In this document: positions 8,812 to 13,726 of the stretch, piece after piece
Layout: every line of letters starts with the position of its first letter
Numbering within the stretch: position 1 is the first letter of the stretch
From: a virus
DNA: 40,930 nt
Reading direction: 5' to 3' (one strand)
Virus record (IMG/VR): IMGVR_UViG_3300009285_004514
Location: 1-40,930 of that record
The notes under the pieces: model-generated
What the model was told of the DNA's origin: nothing
Seen by the model: only the letters and a program-made list of their open reading frames with translations
Database searches by the model: none
Position numbers and translations under genes: made by a program

Positions 8812-9005
8812 AACCTAAGAGCATCGCTTCGGTTTTACGGGGAATGGCATTTCGAGATTTCGTGACCGCCGCCGAAATCGCGGAGCGCGAACGCGCCGCC
8901 AATGAACGGCTGGAACGCATCGAAGCGGAGGATGGAAAAAAGGCAAAAGAGAAAGCCCTTGAGGCTGAGCGCGAGCAGAAATTACTGGAAGCGGAGGCAG
9001 CATGA
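8808..9005 (+). CDS. Small charged coiled-coil protein
   Basis: This 65-residue protein is nearly all helix and dominated by Glu, Lys, Arg and Ala (AAEIAERERAANERLERIEA), a strong coiled-coil pattern. It is coupled by ATGA to the initiator and to the next gene. It may be a small accessory or scaffold protein for replication. No family is recognised. Confidence 0.6.
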   Translation: MKPKSIASVLRGMAFRDFVTAAEIAERERAANERLERIEAEDGKKAKEKALEAEREQKLLEAEAA

Positions 9006-9211
9006 GCGTGTCCATTCCCGAATTCCGTCCCGATCTGACCTCTTATCGTGTGTACCTGGAATTCCTGCGCGATGGAATCAATGAAGATGACTGGAATCAC
9101 CTGAGCCTTACGGACGTGGTCAAGGCTTGCATCGAGGACGTGCTGGCGAAAAAGGCACCCGATGTCAAAATCAAACGGACACGCAAGACCGTTGTCCATG
9201 TGGATTATTAG
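9002..9211 (+). CDS. Hypothetical protein, last phage gene before the cassette array
   Basis: A 69-residue soluble protein whose ATG overlaps the upstream stop. The central helix (LTDVVKACIEDVLAKKA) and a basic C-terminus are the only features. It is the last GC-rich, tightly coupled phage gene on this side. Thirty bases after its stop the sequence changes to the lower-GC cassette block. Confidence 0.6.
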   Translation: MSVSIPEFRPDLTSYRVYLEFLRDGINEDDWNHLSLTDVVKACIEDVLAKKAPDVKIKRTRKTVVHVDY

Positions 9212-9241
9212 AAAGCGGATGTACATTCTGCTCAAGCACTA

Positions 9242-9248
9242 GTTGGAA
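9242..9248 (+). other. Left boundary core site of the cassette array
   Basis: GTTGGAA resembles an R' core (GTTRRRY) and is preceded by CAAGCACTA, similar to the CAAGCC that precedes other cores. It is followed by the leader CCTTGCAAAGG seen after other cassette junctions. I find no convincing matching left arm, so this looks like an attI-like or secondary insertion point rather than a full attC. Confidence 0.4.
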
Positions 9249-9272
9249 AGCCCCTTGCAAAGGTTGGTAGTG

Positions 9273-9491
9273 ATGGCTCAAATAAACGAATTGCCTACAG
9301 TCGGTCAGTGGTTTGAGTTCGATTACACATACCGAAACGAAAAGACCGAAGTTGTGAAACTCAAAGTAGTTGATGTTACTGATGAGCATGTGATTTATAA
9401 AATGCCGAGTGTGTCAGTCAACAAGTTATTTCCAATGACGCACGAATACTGGTTACTCAATCAGGATGAGCGCCGACCATGCCAACACTAG
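9273..9491 (+). CDS. Cassette gene: hypothetical 72-aa protein
   Basis: The first ORF of the array starts at 9273, 25 bp after the boundary core. It is a soluble beta-rich protein (VGQWFEFDYTYRNEKTEVVKL, then VVDVTDEHVIYKM) ending close to Cys/His. No family is recognised. It overlaps the next ORF by 13 bp, so the first cassette appears to carry several coupled genes. AT-rich codon use sets it apart from the preceding phage genes. Confidence 0.55.
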   Translation: MAQINELPTVGQWFEFDYTYRNEKTEVVKLKVVDVTDEHVIYKMPSVSVNKLFPMTHEYWLLNQDERRPCQH

Positions 9492-9967
9492 GCAGACCCA
9501 AAGAACACATTTACGAAGTGGATGATTCTGAAATCAACTATTGGCGAGATGTGAAGAAATTCAAATGGAGTGAAGTAGCCGACTTCTTAGGTGTCCCGCT
9601 TTGGTGGCTTGAGAAATATATAGCATCGAAGAAACTCACGTTCAAAACCAAAAAGGTTTCAGCCACTTATGACAGGCATTATTCATGGAGCGGTTCAAAC
9701 CTTACGGCAAGAAGGCTAGGCTACAAAGATATTTATTGTGCAATTCGTGACATGCGAATGGATGGAATGACCGTCAAGGAAGTTGCTGAGAAGTTGAAGG
9801 TCACAGTCAATACAGTAAATTATCATACACCCCGTGATTTGATTGGCGAAATAACTATCGTGACAGAAAAGAAACGAGAAGCCGCAAGGCAATCCATAAA
9901 AAAGGCACAGGCGAAAGCATGGCAACGAATAACGAACGAGAAACACCCCTGGCAAACAAGATTTTGA
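9479..9967 (+). CDS. Cassette gene: two-HTH DNA-binding protein
   Basis: This 162-residue protein has two helix-turn-helix-like segments: residues ~29-50 (WSEVADFLGVPLWWLEKYI) and ~98-115 (MTVKEVAEKLKVTVNTVNYH). The C-terminus is Lys/Arg/Ala-rich. The two-HTH pattern resembles sigma-like or homing-associated DNA-binding proteins. It may regulate or recognise DNA; no catalytic motif is seen. It overlaps both neighbours. Confidence 0.55.
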   Translation: MPTLGRPKEHIYEVDDSEINYWRDVKKFKWSEVADFLGVPLWWLEKYIASKKLTFKTKKVSATYDRHYSWSGSNLTARRLGYKDIYCAIRDMRMDGMTVKEVAEKLKVTVNTVNYHTPRDLIGEITIVTEKKREAARQSIKKAQAKAWQRITNEKHPWQTRF

Positions 9968-10131
9968 AATGGATTGACGAGTATCAAAGTGGCAAGTCTG
10001 GCATATATCCGTATCAGGTTGCTTTGCAAGTTTGCGCTGAGTTCGTTATCCCGATAGAAGAAGCACAAGACTATGTTGCAGAGCATATCAAACGAGTTTT
10101 GAAAGGAATTGAAAATGAACGAAAACAATGA
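9919..10131 (+). CDS. Cassette gene: hypothetical 70-aa helical protein
   Basis: Starts 49 bp inside the end of the two-HTH gene, in another frame, and reads a coherent helical protein (ANKILKWIDEYQSG, EEAQDYVAEHIKRVLKG). No family is recognised. The next ORF starts within its end behind an AAAGGAATTG ribosome site. The long overlap is unusual for this window and could reflect compact cassette organisation. Confidence 0.5.
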   Translation: MATNNERETPLANKILKWIDEYQSGKSGIYPYQVALQVCAEFVIPIEEAQDYVAEHIKRVLKGIENERKQ

Positions 10132-10357
10132 TGGAATAAAAGCAGATGGAAAGTATTACACGCCTCAGCGCATTGTTGATATTGCCACAGGCACAGGCGC
10201 ATTTTTGAAGAACGCCGCCGATAGCGTGATTGGTAATCCACCTTACGGCTTTCCAACACAGCACGCACCTGACCGCCTTTGGCGTAGGCAGGCGGGCGTT
10301 TTGGTTGTCGTTATTGTTCTGCTGGCGGTGGCTCTAATAGTCATCGGCGGCAGGTAG
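10115..10357 (+). pseudogene. Cassette gene: condensed N6-adenine methylase relic with attC-encoded membrane helix
   Basis: An 80-residue product that contains, within ~45 residues, the signature pieces of type I/IIG-style N6-adenine methylases: GKYYTPQRIVD, then ATGTGAFL (SAM motif I) and VIGNPPYG (catalytic motif IV). In real enzymes these lie 70-100 residues apart, so the interior has been deleted and catalysis is unlikely. From residue ~48 the frame runs into the attC-like repeat and reads a hydrophobic helix (VLVVVIVLLAVALIVIGG) before the stop. It could be a decayed fragment or a new membrane micro-protein. Confidence 0.6.
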
Positions 10358-10372
10358 TGCAAGCCGTTGGGT
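10251..10372 (+). repeat. attC-like site 1 (122 bp)
   Basis: R''-like TTCCAAC (10251-10257) pairs with R' GTTGGGT (10366-10372). Inner arms also pair: CACCTGACCGCC on the left against GGCGGCAGGT on the right, with small bulges as in attC folded strands. The long loop encodes the C-terminus of the methylase relic. Its left arm and loop start closely resemble those of the last site at 13603. Confidence 0.75.
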
Positions 10373-10396
10373 TGCTCTTTGCAAAGGAAGGTTCTG

Positions 10397-10627
10397 ATGG
10401 AAGAAATTTTGAAGCGAGTGATTGAGCAGTTACAAAGTTTAGAATGGGGCGAAGCGCAGGAAAACGTAGACGGCGCACTTGCATATCTTGGTTGTGCTGT
10501 GCAAAATTTACGCAACCCAACAACGGGTGCAGTGGATTTGCTACCTGCCTCCGCTTGCTGTGCCTCGTATGTGTTCGATGGTACTCATCACAAAGATTGT
10601 CGGTACGCGCAACCCGCAAACCACTAA
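10397..10627 (+). CDS. Cassette gene: hypothetical 76-aa protein
   Basis: Starts 24 bp after the previous core site. The N-terminal half is a helical soluble domain (EEILKRVIEQLQSLEWGEAQ). The C-terminal ~37 residues (Cys-rich: SACCASYVF, KDCRYAQ) are read from within the following attC-like site. No family is recognised. The original gene may have ended near the repeat, with the present tail supplied by the cassette recombination site. Confidence 0.5.
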   Translation: MEEILKRVIEQLQSLEWGEAQENVDGALAYLGCAVQNLRNPTTGAVDLLPASACCASYVFDGTHHKDCRYAQPANH

Positions 10628-10643
10628 CCCAAGTCCGTTAGGT
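10515..10643 (+). repeat. attC-like site 2 (129 bp)
   Basis: R'' ACCCAAC (10515-10521) pairs with R' GTTAGGT (10637-10643). Left inner arm GTGCAGTGGATTTGC pairs with right GCAAACCACTAAC. The left arm is nearly the same as that of the site at 13249. The repeat overlaps the end of the preceding cassette gene, and the next cassette ATG lies six bases beyond the core. Confidence 0.8.
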
Positions 10644-10648
10644 GGCTA

Positions 10649-11254
10649 ATGCAAAAGTATCGAACGATTGTCGCAGACCCGCCCTGGAAGTATGGCAAGT
10701 GGGGCAAGGCAAGTGAAAACAGCATTTTCGCTGGCAGTGTTCACAATGTTGATATTGCCTTGCCTTACCCGTCAATGTCGCTTGCAGAAATAGCCGCCTT
10801 GCCTATTCCCGATTTGGCTGAAGTAGATTGTGAATTGTATGTTTGGACAACTCAAAAGTATTTGCCTCACACTTACCCGCTTCTTGAAAAGTGGGGTTTC
10901 AAATACTGCGAAACTCTTACATGGTGCAAAGAGCCACGCGGCACAGGTCAAGGCGGTTTATTCACTCCGACCACTGAATTTATAGTTCATGGTCGCATCG
11001 GTAAAATGCCAAAGAAACAAAGGCTTGATACTACATGGTGGAAGGTAGCGCGTCCGAATGTCCACAGCAGAAAGCCCGAAAGTTTCCAAGATGTGATTGA
11101 GCAAGTAAGCGATATGCCACGTCTTGAAATGTTTGCAAGAAGGTTTAGGTTAGGCTGGCACTCATGGGGCAATGAAGTAGAGTCTCATGTCGAAATACCG
11201 CTACGCCACCTAACACCGCATGCACTGGACGGCGCAACTCGCGCCGAAAATTAG
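10649..11254 (+). CDS. Cassette gene: MT-A70-like adenine methyltransferase
   Basis: This 201-residue protein has the DPPW catalytic motif (residues 10-13, in TIVADPPWKYG), the signature of MT-A70-family N6-adenine methyltransferases. Further family features are LYVWTTQKYLP, the mid-protein FKYCETLTWCKE strand and the C-terminal KPESFQDVIE...RLEMFARR block. Length suits the phage/bacterial MT-A70 group. Such solo enzymes modify DNA, usually for protection from restriction or for regulation; a partner nuclease is absent. The final ~15 residues are read from the attC left arm. The ATG is almost on the core site, so any promoter must lie outside the cassette. Confidence 0.85.
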   Translation: MQKYRTIVADPPWKYGKWGKASENSIFAGSVHNVDIALPYPSMSLAEIAALPIPDLAEVDCELYVWTTQKYLPHTYPLLEKWGFKYCETLTWCKEPRGTGQGGLFTPTTEFIVHGRIGKMPKKQRLDTTWWKVARPNVHSRKPESFQDVIEQVSDMPRLEMFARRFRLGWHSWGNEVESHVEIPLRHLTPHALDGATRAEN

Positions 11255-11313
11255 AGGTCTTGCAAAATGGTGTTGCGTGTTCAATGCGCCGCCAGTAATG
11301 CAAACCGTTCGGC
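11208..11313 (+). repeat. attC-like site 3 (106 bp)
   Basis: R'' ACCTAAC (11208-11214) faces R' GTTCGGC (11307-11313), a one-base departure from GTTRRRY. Inner arms GCATGCACTGGACGGC and GCCGCCAGTAATGC pair. It begins inside the methyltransferase gene. The internal loop holds CTTGCAAAATGG, like the leader of other cassettes, but no gene. Confidence 0.75.
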
Positions 11314-11336
11314 GGCACTTCCAAAAGGAGAAAGCC

Positions 11337-11639
11337 ATGTTAAATAAAATTGAAATCGAAATTGAATTGCTGCGTGATCTGGTTGATGCCAGTGGTTATG
11401 TCTCTACCTTCTACACTATGTTCCTAAATCACGAAACACCAGAAGATTGTGGAGATTTGAATGCAACCGAATATCTCGCCAATGAAGCGTCGTCTATTGC
11501 AGAGCGTGGTCGCGCGGTCTTGGAAGCCGCCGAACAAAAGCGTGCACTGGACGGGCTTTGGGACTGCGCGAATTGTGATAATCGTCAAATCGGTGGCGGC
11601 TTCGCAGAATGTCCAAACTGTGGAACCGCCCGCCGCTAA
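11337..11639 (+). CDS. Cassette gene: small protein with attC-encoded zinc ribbon
   Basis: This 100-residue protein follows an excellent ribosome site (AAAAGGAGAAAGCC before the ATG). Residues 1-65 form a helical domain (KIEIEIELLRDLVDASGY...). Residues ~76-98 are a zinc ribbon with CANC and CPNC knuckles, and this ribbon is encoded entirely within the following attC-like site. The N-terminal domain is not recognised. The ribbon may be a functional adaptor or a by-product of reading through the repeat; regular CxxC spacing favours function. Confidence 0.65.
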   Translation: MLNKIEIEIELLRDLVDASGYVSTFYTMFLNHETPEDCGDLNATEYLANEASSIAERGRAVLEAAEQKRALDGLWDCANCDNRQIGGGFAECPNCGTARR

Positions 11640-11654
11640 CGCAAACCGTTAGGC
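11529..11654 (+). repeat. attC-like site 4 (126 bp)
   Basis: R'' GCCGAAC (11529-11535) and R' GTTAGGC (11648-11654). Inner arms AAGCGTGCACTGGACGGG and CCCGCCGCTAACGC pair. The loop is coding: it supplies the zinc ribbon of the preceding gene, whose stop lies 9 bp before the right core. Confidence 0.75.
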
Positions 11655-11682
11655 AACTTGTTCCGCAACCAAAAGGAGTCTT

Positions 11683-12318
11683 ATGAAAGAGTACCATAAA
11701 ATCCAAACAGTGTTCTTGCGCGATCCAGCCACCAAATTCAAAACGTTACTTGAAGGCGAGTTTGCCTTACCAGAGTTCAAATATCTGGCAGGTAACGAAT
11801 GGGTGTTCACTGAAAAGGTGGATGGCACAAATATCCGCGTGATGTTTGATGGCGATCAAATCACATTCGGCGGCAAAACAGATGACGCGCAAATCCCCGC
11901 CTTGCTTGTAACTCGCTTGCAAGATGTATTCCTTCCACAAATCGAAACATTCAAGGCGAAGTTCACCGATGGCGTTTGTCTCTATGGCGAAGGCTACGGA
12001 GCCAAGATACAAAAGGGTGGTGGTAACTATCGTCCAAATCAAGATTTTGTTTTGTTTGATGTCAAGATTGGTGATTGGTGGTTAGAACGTTCATCTGTCG
12101 AAGAAATTGCAGGTGCTTTAGGTCTTGATATTGTTCCCATTATTGGAACCGGCACGCTTTACGATATGGTCGAAAAGGTAAGGTGTGGTTTCAATTCCAT
12201 TTGGGGCAACTTCCAGGCAGAAGGAATCGTAGCTCGTCCATCCTGTGAATTGAAGTCTCGCAATGGGCAACGTATCATTACAAAACTGAAACATCGTGAT
12301 TTCAGTGGCGTTGCCTAA
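11683..12318 (+). CDS. Cassette gene: Rnl2-like RNA ligase
   Basis: This 211-residue protein shows the nucleotidyltransferase motifs of ATP-dependent RNA ligases in order: motif I EKVDGTN with Lys45 as the adenylation residue, motif III region GVCLYGEGYG (~97-106), IIIa FVLFDVKIG (~122), motif IV AEGIVARP (~181) and motif V ITKLKHRDF (~199). It is shorter than T4 Rnl2 and lacks a C-terminal domain. RNA ligases of this group seal nicks in RNA and can repair cleaved tRNA. Start after AAAAGGAGTCTT. The stop codon lies inside the attC R'' box, a typical cassette arrangement. Confident on family; the substrate is unknown. Confidence 0.88.
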   Translation: MKEYHKIQTVFLRDPATKFKTLLEGEFALPEFKYLAGNEWVFTEKVDGTNIRVMFDGDQITFGGKTDDAQIPALLVTRLQDVFLPQIETFKAKFTDGVCLYGEGYGAKIQKGGGNYRPNQDFVLFDVKIGDWWLERSSVEEIAGALGLDIVPIIGTGTLYDMVEKVRCGFNSIWGNFQAEGIVARPSCELKSRNGQRIITKLKHRDFSGVA

Positions 12319-12404
12319 CACAGCGTCCACCCGACAAGGGCGGGCGTAGGCTCTAAATCAATTATTAGGTTTGCCGCCCTTGCGGGTAACGCAAACCGTT
12401 AGAC
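12313..12404 (+). repeat. attC-like site 5 (92 bp), best-formed
   Basis: R'' GCCTAAC (12313-12319) and R' GTTAGAC (12398-12404). Almost the whole arms pair: GCGTCCACCCGACAAGGGCGG on the left with CCGCCCTTGCGGGTAACGC on the right, with a few extrahelical bases. It follows the RNA ligase and precedes a small membrane-protein cassette. This is the clearest attC in the array. Confidence 0.85.
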
Positions 12405-12434
12405 CGCCCCTTGTGGGCAGAAAGGTTTTGCAAA

Positions 12435-12578
12435 ATGAGAGATTGGGTTATGTGGCATGTGGGTTGGTGGGGCATGTATGGCGTATGGGCGTTGCATGAA
12501 GCTCCTGCAAAAATCGCCGTTGCCTTTGCTGCAATTATTATCTATGCCGTCATCCATGCGAAATGGAAGGCGGCATAA
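12435..12578 (+). CDS. Cassette gene: small membrane protein (47 aa)
   Basis: This short ORF has a Trp/Met/Gly-rich N-terminus (WVMWHVGWWGMYG) followed by a hydrophobic helix (residues ~24-40, KIAVAFAAIIIYAVIHA) and a basic end. The ATG is preceded by TTGCAAA, the leader shared with other cassettes. The stop codon TAA lies inside the next R'' box. No family is recognised; single small membrane proteins are common in environmental cassettes. Confidence 0.6.
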   Translation: MRDWVMWHVGWWGMYGVWALHEAPAKIAVAFAAIIIYAVIHAKWKAA

Positions 12579-12663
12579 CAAAGCGTGCACCTGACGTGCG
12601 GCAGGCTGCGGTCATAATTGGACAGTTACCTGTGCCACACACAGGTAACGCAAACCGCTGGGC
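12573..12663 (+). repeat. attC-like site 6 (91 bp), altered right core
   Basis: R''-like GCATAAC (12573-12579) faces GCTGGGC (12657-12663), where the invariant GTT has become GCT. Arms CGTGCACCTGACG and CAGGTAACGCAAACC pair in the usual places, and an extra TTACCTGTG/CACAGGTAA hairpin fills the loop. The altered cleavage triplet suggests a weak or inactive recombination site. Confidence 0.7.
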
Positions 12664-12676
12664 AGATAGGAGCGCA

Positions 12677-12811
12677 ATGAAAAACGCTGGAATTTGTGGT
12701 AGTTGTGAGTACTTCGTAAGAATGAACGATGTGATTTTATCCCCTCGTGGTGCTTGGCTCTCACCACCCGCAAGTAATACAGCCGTTGGGTTGCTTCCTT
12801 GCAAAGGATAG
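12677..12811 (+). CDS. Cassette gene: Cys-containing micro-protein (44 aa)
   Basis: Starts 13 bp after the altered core. The N-terminus has a single CGSC knuckle (residues ~7-10). Everything after residue ~15 is read from the next attC-like site. No second metal knuckle exists, so it looks like a truncated zinc-ribbon gene cut back to its first knuckle by the cassette end. Translation is uncertain. Confidence 0.4.
   Translation: MKNAGICGSCEYFVRMNDVILSPRGAWLSPPASNTAVGLLPCKG
12721..12791 (+). repeat. attC-like site 7 (71 bp)
   Basis: Right core GTTGGGT (12785-12791) with AAGTAATACAGCC before it. The left end AATGAAC (12721-12727) is a weaker R'' match. Inner arms CGTGGTGC and CACCACCCG pair. 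It is the shortest and least regular left arm of the array. The leader TTGCTTCCTTGCAAAGG follows the core, as after site 1. Confidence 0.6.
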
Positions 12812-12818
12812 GTGCATT

Positions 12819-13244
12819 ATGGGTTCGAGTCGGTCCGCTTATATTGGCGTGTATTTCAAGGTCTACATGCCGAAAGAAAAATACATCAGCGGTGAAAGGC
12901 AATGCCCGAAGTGTAAAAAATATGTATCAAGCACATATTGTCAAAACGACGGAACGAAAACGGTAGAGGTTGAAAAAGAAAGATTGTCTAATTTTCACGA
13001 GTTATGCGAATCGGTTTTTGGAGACGAAGACCAATTTTCAACAGGAAATATTGACAGTAATGAATTCGAGATTGTTATGGCAAATAGTGATAATCAGCCT
13101 GGTTACTTTTACGTTTCGGATGAGATTGAGCAACCATTGCCACAAGAAGATTATTCAGGTGATTGGCAAATTCTCGCAAATGCACTTGATGAGCGCGGCA
13201 TAAAATACGAGAAACGCTTTGGGATTGTGTCTTATTGGTCATAG
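12819..13244 (+). CDS. Cassette gene: hypothetical 141-aa protein
   Basis: A soluble protein with an N-terminal beta-strand (SAYIGVYFKVYMPKE), a CPKC knuckle with a later Cys (~residues 29-42), and a long acidic domain (EDYSGDWQILANALDERG). It resembles small phage or cassette proteins that begin with a SAYIGVY-type strand, but I cannot name a family. Start after AAAGGATAGGTGCATT. The stop lies a few bases before the next R'' box. Confidence 0.6.
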   Translation: MGSSRSAYIGVYFKVYMPKEKYISGERQCPKCKKYVSSTYCQNDGTKTVEVEKERLSNFHELCESVFGDEDQFSTGNIDSNEFEIVMANSDNQPGYFYVSDEIEQPLPQEDYSGDWQILANALDERGIKYEKRFGIVSYWS

Positions 13245-13248
13245 CGCA

Positions 13249-13377
13249 ACCCAACACAGCGTGCAGTGGATTTGCGGGACTCTGCGCGGTTTACGAGATT
13301 TTTCTTCGGTCAAGTTTTTTCTCATCCCGAAGTTTTATCTCGCCCCTCCCGCAAACCAGTAACGCAAGCCGTTAGGT
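13249..13377 (+). repeat. attC-like site 8 (129 bp)
   Basis: R'' ACCCAAC (13249-13255) and R' GTTAGGT (13371-13377). Arms AGCGTGCAGTGGATTTGC and GCAAACCAGTAACGC pair. The loop holds a further hairpin (CGAGATTTTTCTTCGG ... CCGAAGTTTTATCTCG) and no gene. Left arm and length closely match site 2. Confidence 0.85.
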
Positions 13378-13413
13378 AGACTATAATTGGCTCAAAAAAA
13401 GGAGCATGGCAGG

Positions 13414-13695
13414 ATGAGAGAATTTGAAGTATTGGCTTATAAATTAAGTTCAATTCTCGCGGAAATAACCAGCAGGATCGAAGAATTGCACAACGGCAAA
13501 GACATCACGATAAGCAACGAAAGGGCATGGTCAATTATCCATAGAATGCAAGAGATCATTGACTGGAGTTTTGTAAAAGCGAAAACTCCAGAACAAAAAG
13601 ATGCCGAACGTCGCTCGCACCTGACCACCTTTGGCGTTGGCACGCTGGCGTTCCTCGCCGGCTTTGGTGTCTGTTGGTTCGTGTTTGTCCACTAA
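13414..13695 (+). CDS. Cassette gene: helical protein with attC-encoded membrane tail
   Basis: A 93-residue protein from the ATG at 13414 (AAGGAG upstream; an upstream TTG at 13387 was not chosen). Residues 1-62 are helical and charged (REFEVLAYKLSSILAEITSR...). Residues ~70-92 form a hydrophobic helix (VGTLAFLAGFGVCWFVFVH) read wholly inside the following attC-like site. This gives a tail-anchored topology. No family is recognised. Confidence 0.55.
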   Translation: MREFEVLAYKLSSILAEITSRIEELHNGKDITISNERAWSIIHRMQEIIDWSFVKAKTPEQKDAERRSHLTTFGVGTLAFLAGFGVCWFVFVH

Positions 13696-13726
13696 ATCGG
13701 CGGTCAGGTAAAGCCAGCCGTCGGGC
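13603..13726 (+). repeat. attC-like site 9 (124 bp), right end of the array
   Basis: R'' GCCGAAC (13603-13609) faces GTCGGGC (13720-13726), a core with GTC instead of GTT. Inner arms CACCTGACCACC and GGCGGTCAGGT pair. The left arm and loop start (CACCTGACCrCCTTTGGCGTwGGCA) match site 1 closely. Phage-type sequence resumes 12 bp later. Confidence 0.75.

Follow-up and report, generated by a model that had tools for sequence, protein, structure and literature searches.

The 40,930-bp IMG/VR virus record IMGVR_UViG_3300009285_004514, analysed at its full length and hereafter called the window, contains at 9242-13726 a genuine array of integron-type gene cassettes. The array follows a small, conserved phage gene and precedes the HNH and terminase genes. 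It is likely that this block is a cassette array of the Anaerolineales type that fills a slot for accessory genes in a tailed-phage genome, and that it acts as a dedicated capture locus served in trans by an integron integrase (IntI). A broader proposition appears fairly plausible, i.e. that widespread tailed phages of Anaerolineales have domesticated the integron as a capture locus, either with an IntI of their own and an attI site at the 3′ end of its gene, or with a mimic of the host attI that would be loaded by the host IntI, and that cassettes circulate among unrelated phages. If this is the case, integron recombination would open a way for phage genomes to change and for cassettes to pass between phages and bacteria, and the accessory genes of a phage hotspot would have a site-specific means of turnover; the exchange of counter-defence cassettes would become directly testable in existing IntI/attC/attI assays.

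attC sites and setting of the array

A covariance model, R1, was built from 32 attC sites of bacterial genome contigs, mostly from Chloroflexota/Anaerolineae, with the window sites excluded, and was run with filters off. The bacterial sites were gathered by the end motif TAACGCAAACCGTTRGGC or a near variant of it, and the 32 were then aligned (alignment A1); the collecting motif was read off the window, so that the sequences in R1 are independent of it but the attC family chosen is not. For the R″/R′ and L″/L′ structure of these bacterial sites, 95.4% of the cells were paired, and the covariation score was 0.321; shuffles gave 0.118, and sliding the helix gave 0.073 at most. This covariation supports the attC structure on which R1 is based.

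It is apparent from the R1 search that the window contains eight attC sites, all on the + strand between 10251 and 13726, with E values ranging from 4e-31 to 2e-4. The best R1 match elsewhere in the window scored 10 bits (E 0.31).

attC 1, 10251-10372, + strand: R1 52.3 bits, E 4.9e-14
attC 2, 10515-10643, + strand: R1 40.9 bits
attC 3, 11208-11313, + strand: R1 54.3 bits
attC 4, 11529-11654, + strand: R1 48.8 bits
attC 5, 12313-12404, + strand: R1 65.9 bits
attC 6, 12573-12663, + strand: R1 60.5 bits
attC 7, 13249-13377, + strand: R1 108.7 bits, the most typical Anaerolineales attC
attC 8, 13603-13726, + strand: R1 20.7 bits, E 1.8e-4, the most divergent of the eight; it forms the right-hand end of the array

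An initial annotation, made from the sequence alone, had described nine attC-like elements and proposed that they be checked with an attC covariance model and by single-strand folding. The model check bore out eight of them as full, co-oriented sites; the ninth, near 12785, is an R′-side half-site only (GTTGGGT, 12785-12791), undetected by R1. The folding check gave a mixed result. Free folding of the bottom-strand DNA produced the attC hairpin at 11208, 12313, 13249 and 13603, and the other sites were not favoured by free energy alone; folding was clearly better than in shuffles only for 12313 and 13249. Bottom-strand free folding is thus weak evidence, and single-strand folding z-scores were set aside as an attC test, being uninformative for half of the sites. 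Site attC 7 shares 70-78% DNA identity with bacterial attC sites (blastn, Anaerolineae genomes). Applied to viral loci, R1 returned 302 matches across 67 loci, and on the arrays of phage TJE1 and of Vibrio phages it returned zero; R1 is therefore specific to the Anaerolineales attC family and not a generic attC model.

A profile search with TIGR02249 found no integron integrase gene (intI) in the whole record, in agreement with the initial annotation. As judged with R1, the block therefore resembles a cluster of attC sites lacking an integron integrase (CALIN), a class defined by at least two tandem attC sites in one orientation (here eight on the + strand, with gaps of up to ~660 bp) and by the absence of intI nearby. 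Phage genes on both sides further uphold the description of the block as CALIN-like and as part of a tailed-phage genome. On the 5′ side are genes for an FtsK-like protein, a DnaA_N-domain protein and a 69-aa protein (9002-9211). On the 3′ side follow HNH, the small and large terminase subunits (TerS and TerL), portal, protease and major capsid. The G+C content of 9242-13726 is ~44-48%, vs ~54-60% outside, confirming the lower value noted earlier for the cassettes. Promoter-like sites in the array numbered 9, in comparison with 6.3 ± 2.4 in shuffles, i.e. no excess, and Rfam at the gathering threshold gave no match anywhere in the window. Having no intI gene, the window is not a complete integron and falls outside the phage IntI clade described below, in which attI adjoins the intI 3′ end; it is placed in the intI-less subgroup with an attI-like site.

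A conserved attI-like site where the array begins

The first cassette begins at a crossover point, G|TT, at 9242/9243, and the array ends at ~13726. Two features define its left boundary.

9002-9211, + strand: small phage gene (69 aa), directly 5′ of the attI-like site
9219-9248, + strand: attI-like site, ATGTACATTCTGCTCAAGCACTA-G^TTGGAA; the array begins at 9242/9243

The sequence directly after the stop codon of 9002-9211 is GATGTACATTCTGCTCAAGCACTA|GTTGG. The same attI-like element starts the attC array at loci L007, L027, L038, L054, L150 and L275, in each case behind a homologue of the small gene (tblastn; alignment A3, 35-44% identity), and at L274, where it follows a different gene. Among the eight phages, the 24 nt that precede the crossover have a pairwise identity of 80%, vs 28-37% in the adjacent 30-nt blocks, an ungapped comparison that somewhat underestimates the flank identities. 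The attI-like pattern has a single match in the window at up to 3 mismatches, where 0 are expected, and is present in five viral contigs. In its extended form the phage pattern was found in 1 of 396 Anaerolineae genomes. That one chromosomal copy (genome G431, locus L317; G431:C13 near 85115) has no obvious phage context in the ~1 kb read around it.

It was of interest to compare these sites with those of bacteria. A host-attI matrix was built from 22 bacterial sites adjoining intI, which had been chosen with a TAGTT anchor, so that the core is shared by construction and the remainder is not. With this matrix the array start ranked first in L007, L054, L150, L274, L275 and L038 (17.5-30.6 bits; runner-up at most 13.6). 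The L027 site was mis-registered in the scan, and the top match of that locus sits at the right place. The core CATAGTTRGGC is common to the Anaerolineales host sites and the phage sites. As judged by sequence, the phage attI-like site appears to resemble the attI of Anaerolineales chromosomal integrons.

The small gene itself offers few clues. Its product matched nothing in Pfam or PHROG, and an AF2 model gave two helices at low confidence (pLDDT 63.5), for which reason no function was derived from the structure. The homologue in L007 (1854-2042, - strand) has an in-frame stop in an otherwise conserved frame.

The left boundary bears on two other explanations. In one, part of a chromosomal integron of the host was gained by illegitimate or homologous recombination and is carried as inert cargo. 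This passive capture is unlikely, although the window does lack intI and two of its attC sites are degenerate, and although off-target or illegitimate recombination has been proposed as the origin of phage CALINs (Qi et al. 2023, PMC9892861). A randomly captured piece is difficult to reconcile with a left boundary that falls on an attI-like island kept in eight phages whose flanking DNA is not conserved, or with the repetition of the order of small gene and array in other phages. In the other, the record is an assembly chimera or a mis-called viral contig, i.e. a bacterial integron fragment joined to a phage, or a piece of chromosome. The contig is metagenomic, and attC repeats can cause mis-assembly. 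The initial annotation had named a chimera among the findings that would undo its reading. This is very improbable because other contigs hold arrays at the same attI-like site behind homologues of the small gene. The order of small gene, attI-like site and array recurs in contigs of other metagenomes and in a metagenome-assembled genome (MAG), phage genes flank the array on both sides, and a TerL match was obtained in 33 of 50 searched viral records bearing attC or intI (from two families alone, and some of them weak).

Cassettes shared between phages

Single cassettes were found to be common to different phage contigs. The shared blocks are of 94.9% identity over 706 bp (L002/L052), 95.0% over 403 bp (L009/L056), 97.7% over 260 bp (L026/L034), 95.0% over 822 bp (L039/L047) and 82% over 491 bp (L023/L037). 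Their ends lie mostly 2-19 nt from an attC crossover; the exceptions are one end each of L039/L047 and L009/L056, for which the nearest modelled crossover is farther off. These pairs were selected for short blocks of high identity, and they illustrate exchange without measuring a rate. The backbones of L026 and L034 are ~90% alike, so that in this pair related phages hold mostly different arrays. In the window, cassette 4 is 85.5% identical in DNA to L023 over 234 bp, beginning at the window cassette boundary. Cassettes shared singly, with ends mostly near attC crossovers, also argue against passive capture.

Some viral contigs end close to such sites. In records G033, G015, G004 and G049 (those of L045, L020, L005 and L196), attC or intI lies near one or both contig ends, as if the array itself interrupted assembly, and variation of the cassettes within the population would be consistent with this.

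Integrons encoded by related phages

Neither the attI-like site nor the existence of phage relatives with their own intI had been noticed in the initial annotation; these are considered here to be the more interesting part. A sister lineage (L068/G045), whose TerL shares 54% identity with that of the window, encodes an IntI (P0001) that scored 408 bits with TIGR02249, against a cut-off of 265. Its intI is located upstream of the terminase, with attC cassettes directly behind it. An IntI above the cut-off was found in 9 of 50 viral records (G004, G021, G032 and G045-G050), a proportion that is not a frequency, as 6 of the 50 were chosen for IntI or TerL similarity.

In a phylogenetic analysis, ten phage IntI proteins grouped as a single clade (support 93/93) that excluded the 28 host IntI proteins, and a second, quicker tree agrees (SH-aLRT 90). 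The existence of this clade is a further point against passive capture. In the phage integrons sampled, intI is co-directional with the cassettes and attI is at the intI 3′ end, whereas host integrons are divergent. In G045-G050 the first cassette begins at the intI stop codon or a few nt from it, at TTATTAAACAGC...GAATCATGAGTT; the R1 search of G047 returned no attC. Where tested, the TerL proteins of the phage-IntI contigs belong to three families, phrog_9, phrog_38 and phrog_2 (no TerL was matched in G021 and G048). The IntI has therefore either spread across virion modules or stayed in place while the modules were exchanged. Among 50,697 GenBank phage records, no IntI was found at 60% identity or above. 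The IntI-like proteins of L198-L207, at 36-52% identity, were rejected as phage integrons; no R1 attC was present in those tested.

A single fixed slot for all of the attC-bearing viral records was considered and rejected after comparison by hand of attC and TerL positions. The array shares the strand of TerL and lies upstream of it in about a dozen records (e.g. G009, G016, G018, G027, G029, G030, G035, G038, G042, G045 and G050), and in others it is on the opposite strand (e.g. G001, G003, G007, G015 and G031).

The sister lineage, with intI in the corresponding slot, raises the prospect that the window phage was once self-sufficient and lost the intI beside its attI, keeping a remnant array. 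This is quite unlikely. The site of the intI-less group (TGTACATTCYG...) is unlike the phage attI at the 3′ end of intI (TTAAACAGC...GAATCATGAGTT) and closer to bacterial attI, and no intI remnant was noticed before 9212.

Type of host

The phage host is probably a member of the Anaerolineales (Chloroflexota), in view of the distribution of the attC motif, the match of attC 7 to bacterial sites and the related phage pieces in Anaerolineales MAGs. Of the attC-end loci with taxonomy that were counted, 74 of 89 are from Chloroflexota, including 45 named Anaerolineae, and an IntI above the cut-off is carried by 32 of 49 attC-bearing genomes. At host loci with attC in reach, the attC sites are on the strand opposite intI and 5′ of it. 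An Anaerolineales-labelled MAG contains a related phage piece (L113; TerL 51%), and another Anaerolineales MAG contains, at L150, the small gene, the attI-like site and an attC array, then lysozyme, TerS, TerL and portal (open reading frames (ORFs) identified by eye).

Proposed mechanism and relation to known systems

The mechanism that would follow from reading the block as a capture locus is this. During infection, IntI would be supplied in trans, either by a host chromosomal integron or by a co-infecting phage with intI, and would insert cassettes by attC x attI recombination at G^TT; it may also shuffle or excise them. As the cassettes are co-directional and without obvious promoters, their transcription would start from a phage promoter further upstream. 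The DNA methyltransferase and RNA ligase among the cargo may protect the phage DNA or RNA against host defence. In sister phages the device would be self-contained, with intI just upstream and attI built into its 3′ end.

Several observations weigh against this interpretation. The attI-like copy in the window is the weakest of those examined, ranking first of 81,786 positions at 5.9 bits with a margin of only 0.6, and attC 8 and the half-site near 12785 are degenerate; the array in the window may therefore be partly frozen. Several bottom strands fold no better than shuffles. Outside attC, the window cassettes had no DNA match in the 396 Anaerolineae genomes, and a recent host donor was thus not found there. 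The host assignment draws on the type of attC and attI and on relatives found in MAGs, and MAGs are open to mis-binning. The sites, their conservation, their distribution and the shared cassettes are what the sequences demonstrate; recombination activity, the source of IntI, the expression of the cassettes and their role in counter-defence are inferred.

The initial annotation had remarked that arrays without an integrase are known in chromosomes, which must be qualified in that phage CALINs are also on record. They were published in 2023 for virulent and temperate phages, at a low frequency (17 CALINs in 10,705 phages), and their attC sites work, IntI1 having recombined five of the six phage attC tested (Qi et al. 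2023, PMC9892861). A CALIN in a phage is thus not new. Those of virulent phages (Tetrasphaera phage TJE1, Polaribacter phage P12002L and Pseudoalteromonas phage PH101; PMC9892861) resemble the window array in having attC-bounded cassettes without intI in tailed phages, and methyltransferase cassettes. They differ in that the eight attC sites of the window begin at an attI-like site conserved in several phages, and the attC family is not that of TJE1, since R1 finds no TJE1 site. Integrons are also known in temperate phages (Vibrio phages Va_90-11-286_p16 and PF430-3_p42, Shewanella phage M16-3, and P1 with class 1 integrons; PMC9892861), which share with the phage integrons reported here an intI within the phage genome, with or without cassettes. 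They are described as host or class 1 pieces, whereas the phage IntI proteins of this study form a separate clade, of which the members sampled have co-directional genes and a 3′ attI. The sedentary chromosomal integrons of Anaerolineales share the attC family and the attI core; their attC sites, however, are opposite the intI strand on its 5′ side, and the phage arrays are co-directional or intI-less.

A similar layout is present in the deposited Virus Rctr41k (KX853513, from a DAMO/AAA enrichment), a 41-kb tailed virus in which an IntI-like 'xerD' is followed by six co-directional attC sites of the Anaerolineales type, all detected by R1 (L315, KX853513.1, 4680-10101). The arrangement has the look of a complete integron, for which the record carries no annotation, and no paper naming this virus was found in the open-access literature searched. 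The IntI of Rctr41k is a divergent one (41%), and the long branch that it forms has an uncertain position in the tree. The conserved attI-like site, the complete integrons in related viral contigs and the near-identical shared cassettes go further than the published phage CALINs. No description of an attI-like landing site in phages, of a phage IntI clade or of integrons of Chloroflexota phages was found in that same literature, a search that left most subscription papers and preprints outside its scope.

Genes of the window cassettes

The cassettes and their ORFs are as follows.

Cassette 1, 9243-10366, + strand: multi-gene; ORFs 9273-9491, 9479-9967 (helix-turn-helix, HTH), 9919-10131 and 10115-10357
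Cassette 2 ORF, 10397-10627, + strand: 76 aa, ORF call
Cassette 3 ORF, 10649-11254, + strand: MT-A70-type DNA methyltransferase (PF05063, 8e-23; phrog_359, 1e-42; PADLOC MTase_II, 1e-42)
Cassette 4 ORF, 11337-11639, + strand: 100 aa; cassette body common to phage contig L023
Cassette 5 ORF, 11683-12318, + strand: phage-type RNA ligase (PF09414, 5e-18; phrog_548, 4e-23)
Cassette 6 ORF, 12411-12578, + strand: 55 aa, ORF call
Cassette 7 ORF, 12677-12811, + strand: small; reads through the degenerate half-site GTTGGGT, 12785-12791
Cassette 8 ORF, 12819-13244, + strand: 141 aa, ORF call
Cassette 9 ORF, 13414-13695, + strand: 93 aa; C-terminal hydrophobic helix encoded inside attC 8

A reading of the cassettes as defence genes (PADLOC) gave a strong match for the methyltransferase only. 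The ORF of cassette 2 had no match in Pfam or PHROG, and that of cassette 8 none in Pfam, PADLOC or PHROG. The RNA ligase is closest to that of Caudoviricetes MW202524 (65%). The closest RNA ligase genes are in phages, annotated among replication-type genes, and no attC was found there; a phage-type gene has therefore been turned into a cassette.

In cassette 1, weak Pfam matches to HTH and Eco57I-type families fell below the cut-off. The ORF at its end (10115-10357) is a fused remnant, with an N6-methylase NPPY-like stretch (VIGNPPYG) and a hydrophobic tail encoded in attC, which suggests an internal deletion of a methyltransferase gene. A hydrophobic tail is likewise encoded by attC in cassette 9 (window 13603-13695: RRSHLTTFGVGTLAFLAGFGVCWFVFVH). 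Nearly the same tails are encoded by attC sites of phage contigs L007 (attC near 1552-1674, - strand) and L034 (10389-10511, - strand), as HRMHLTTFGVGMLAFCAGFGICWLVFVR and HRVQLTAFGVGMLAFIAGFGICWFVFVR, respectively, and attC may therefore double as coding sequence.

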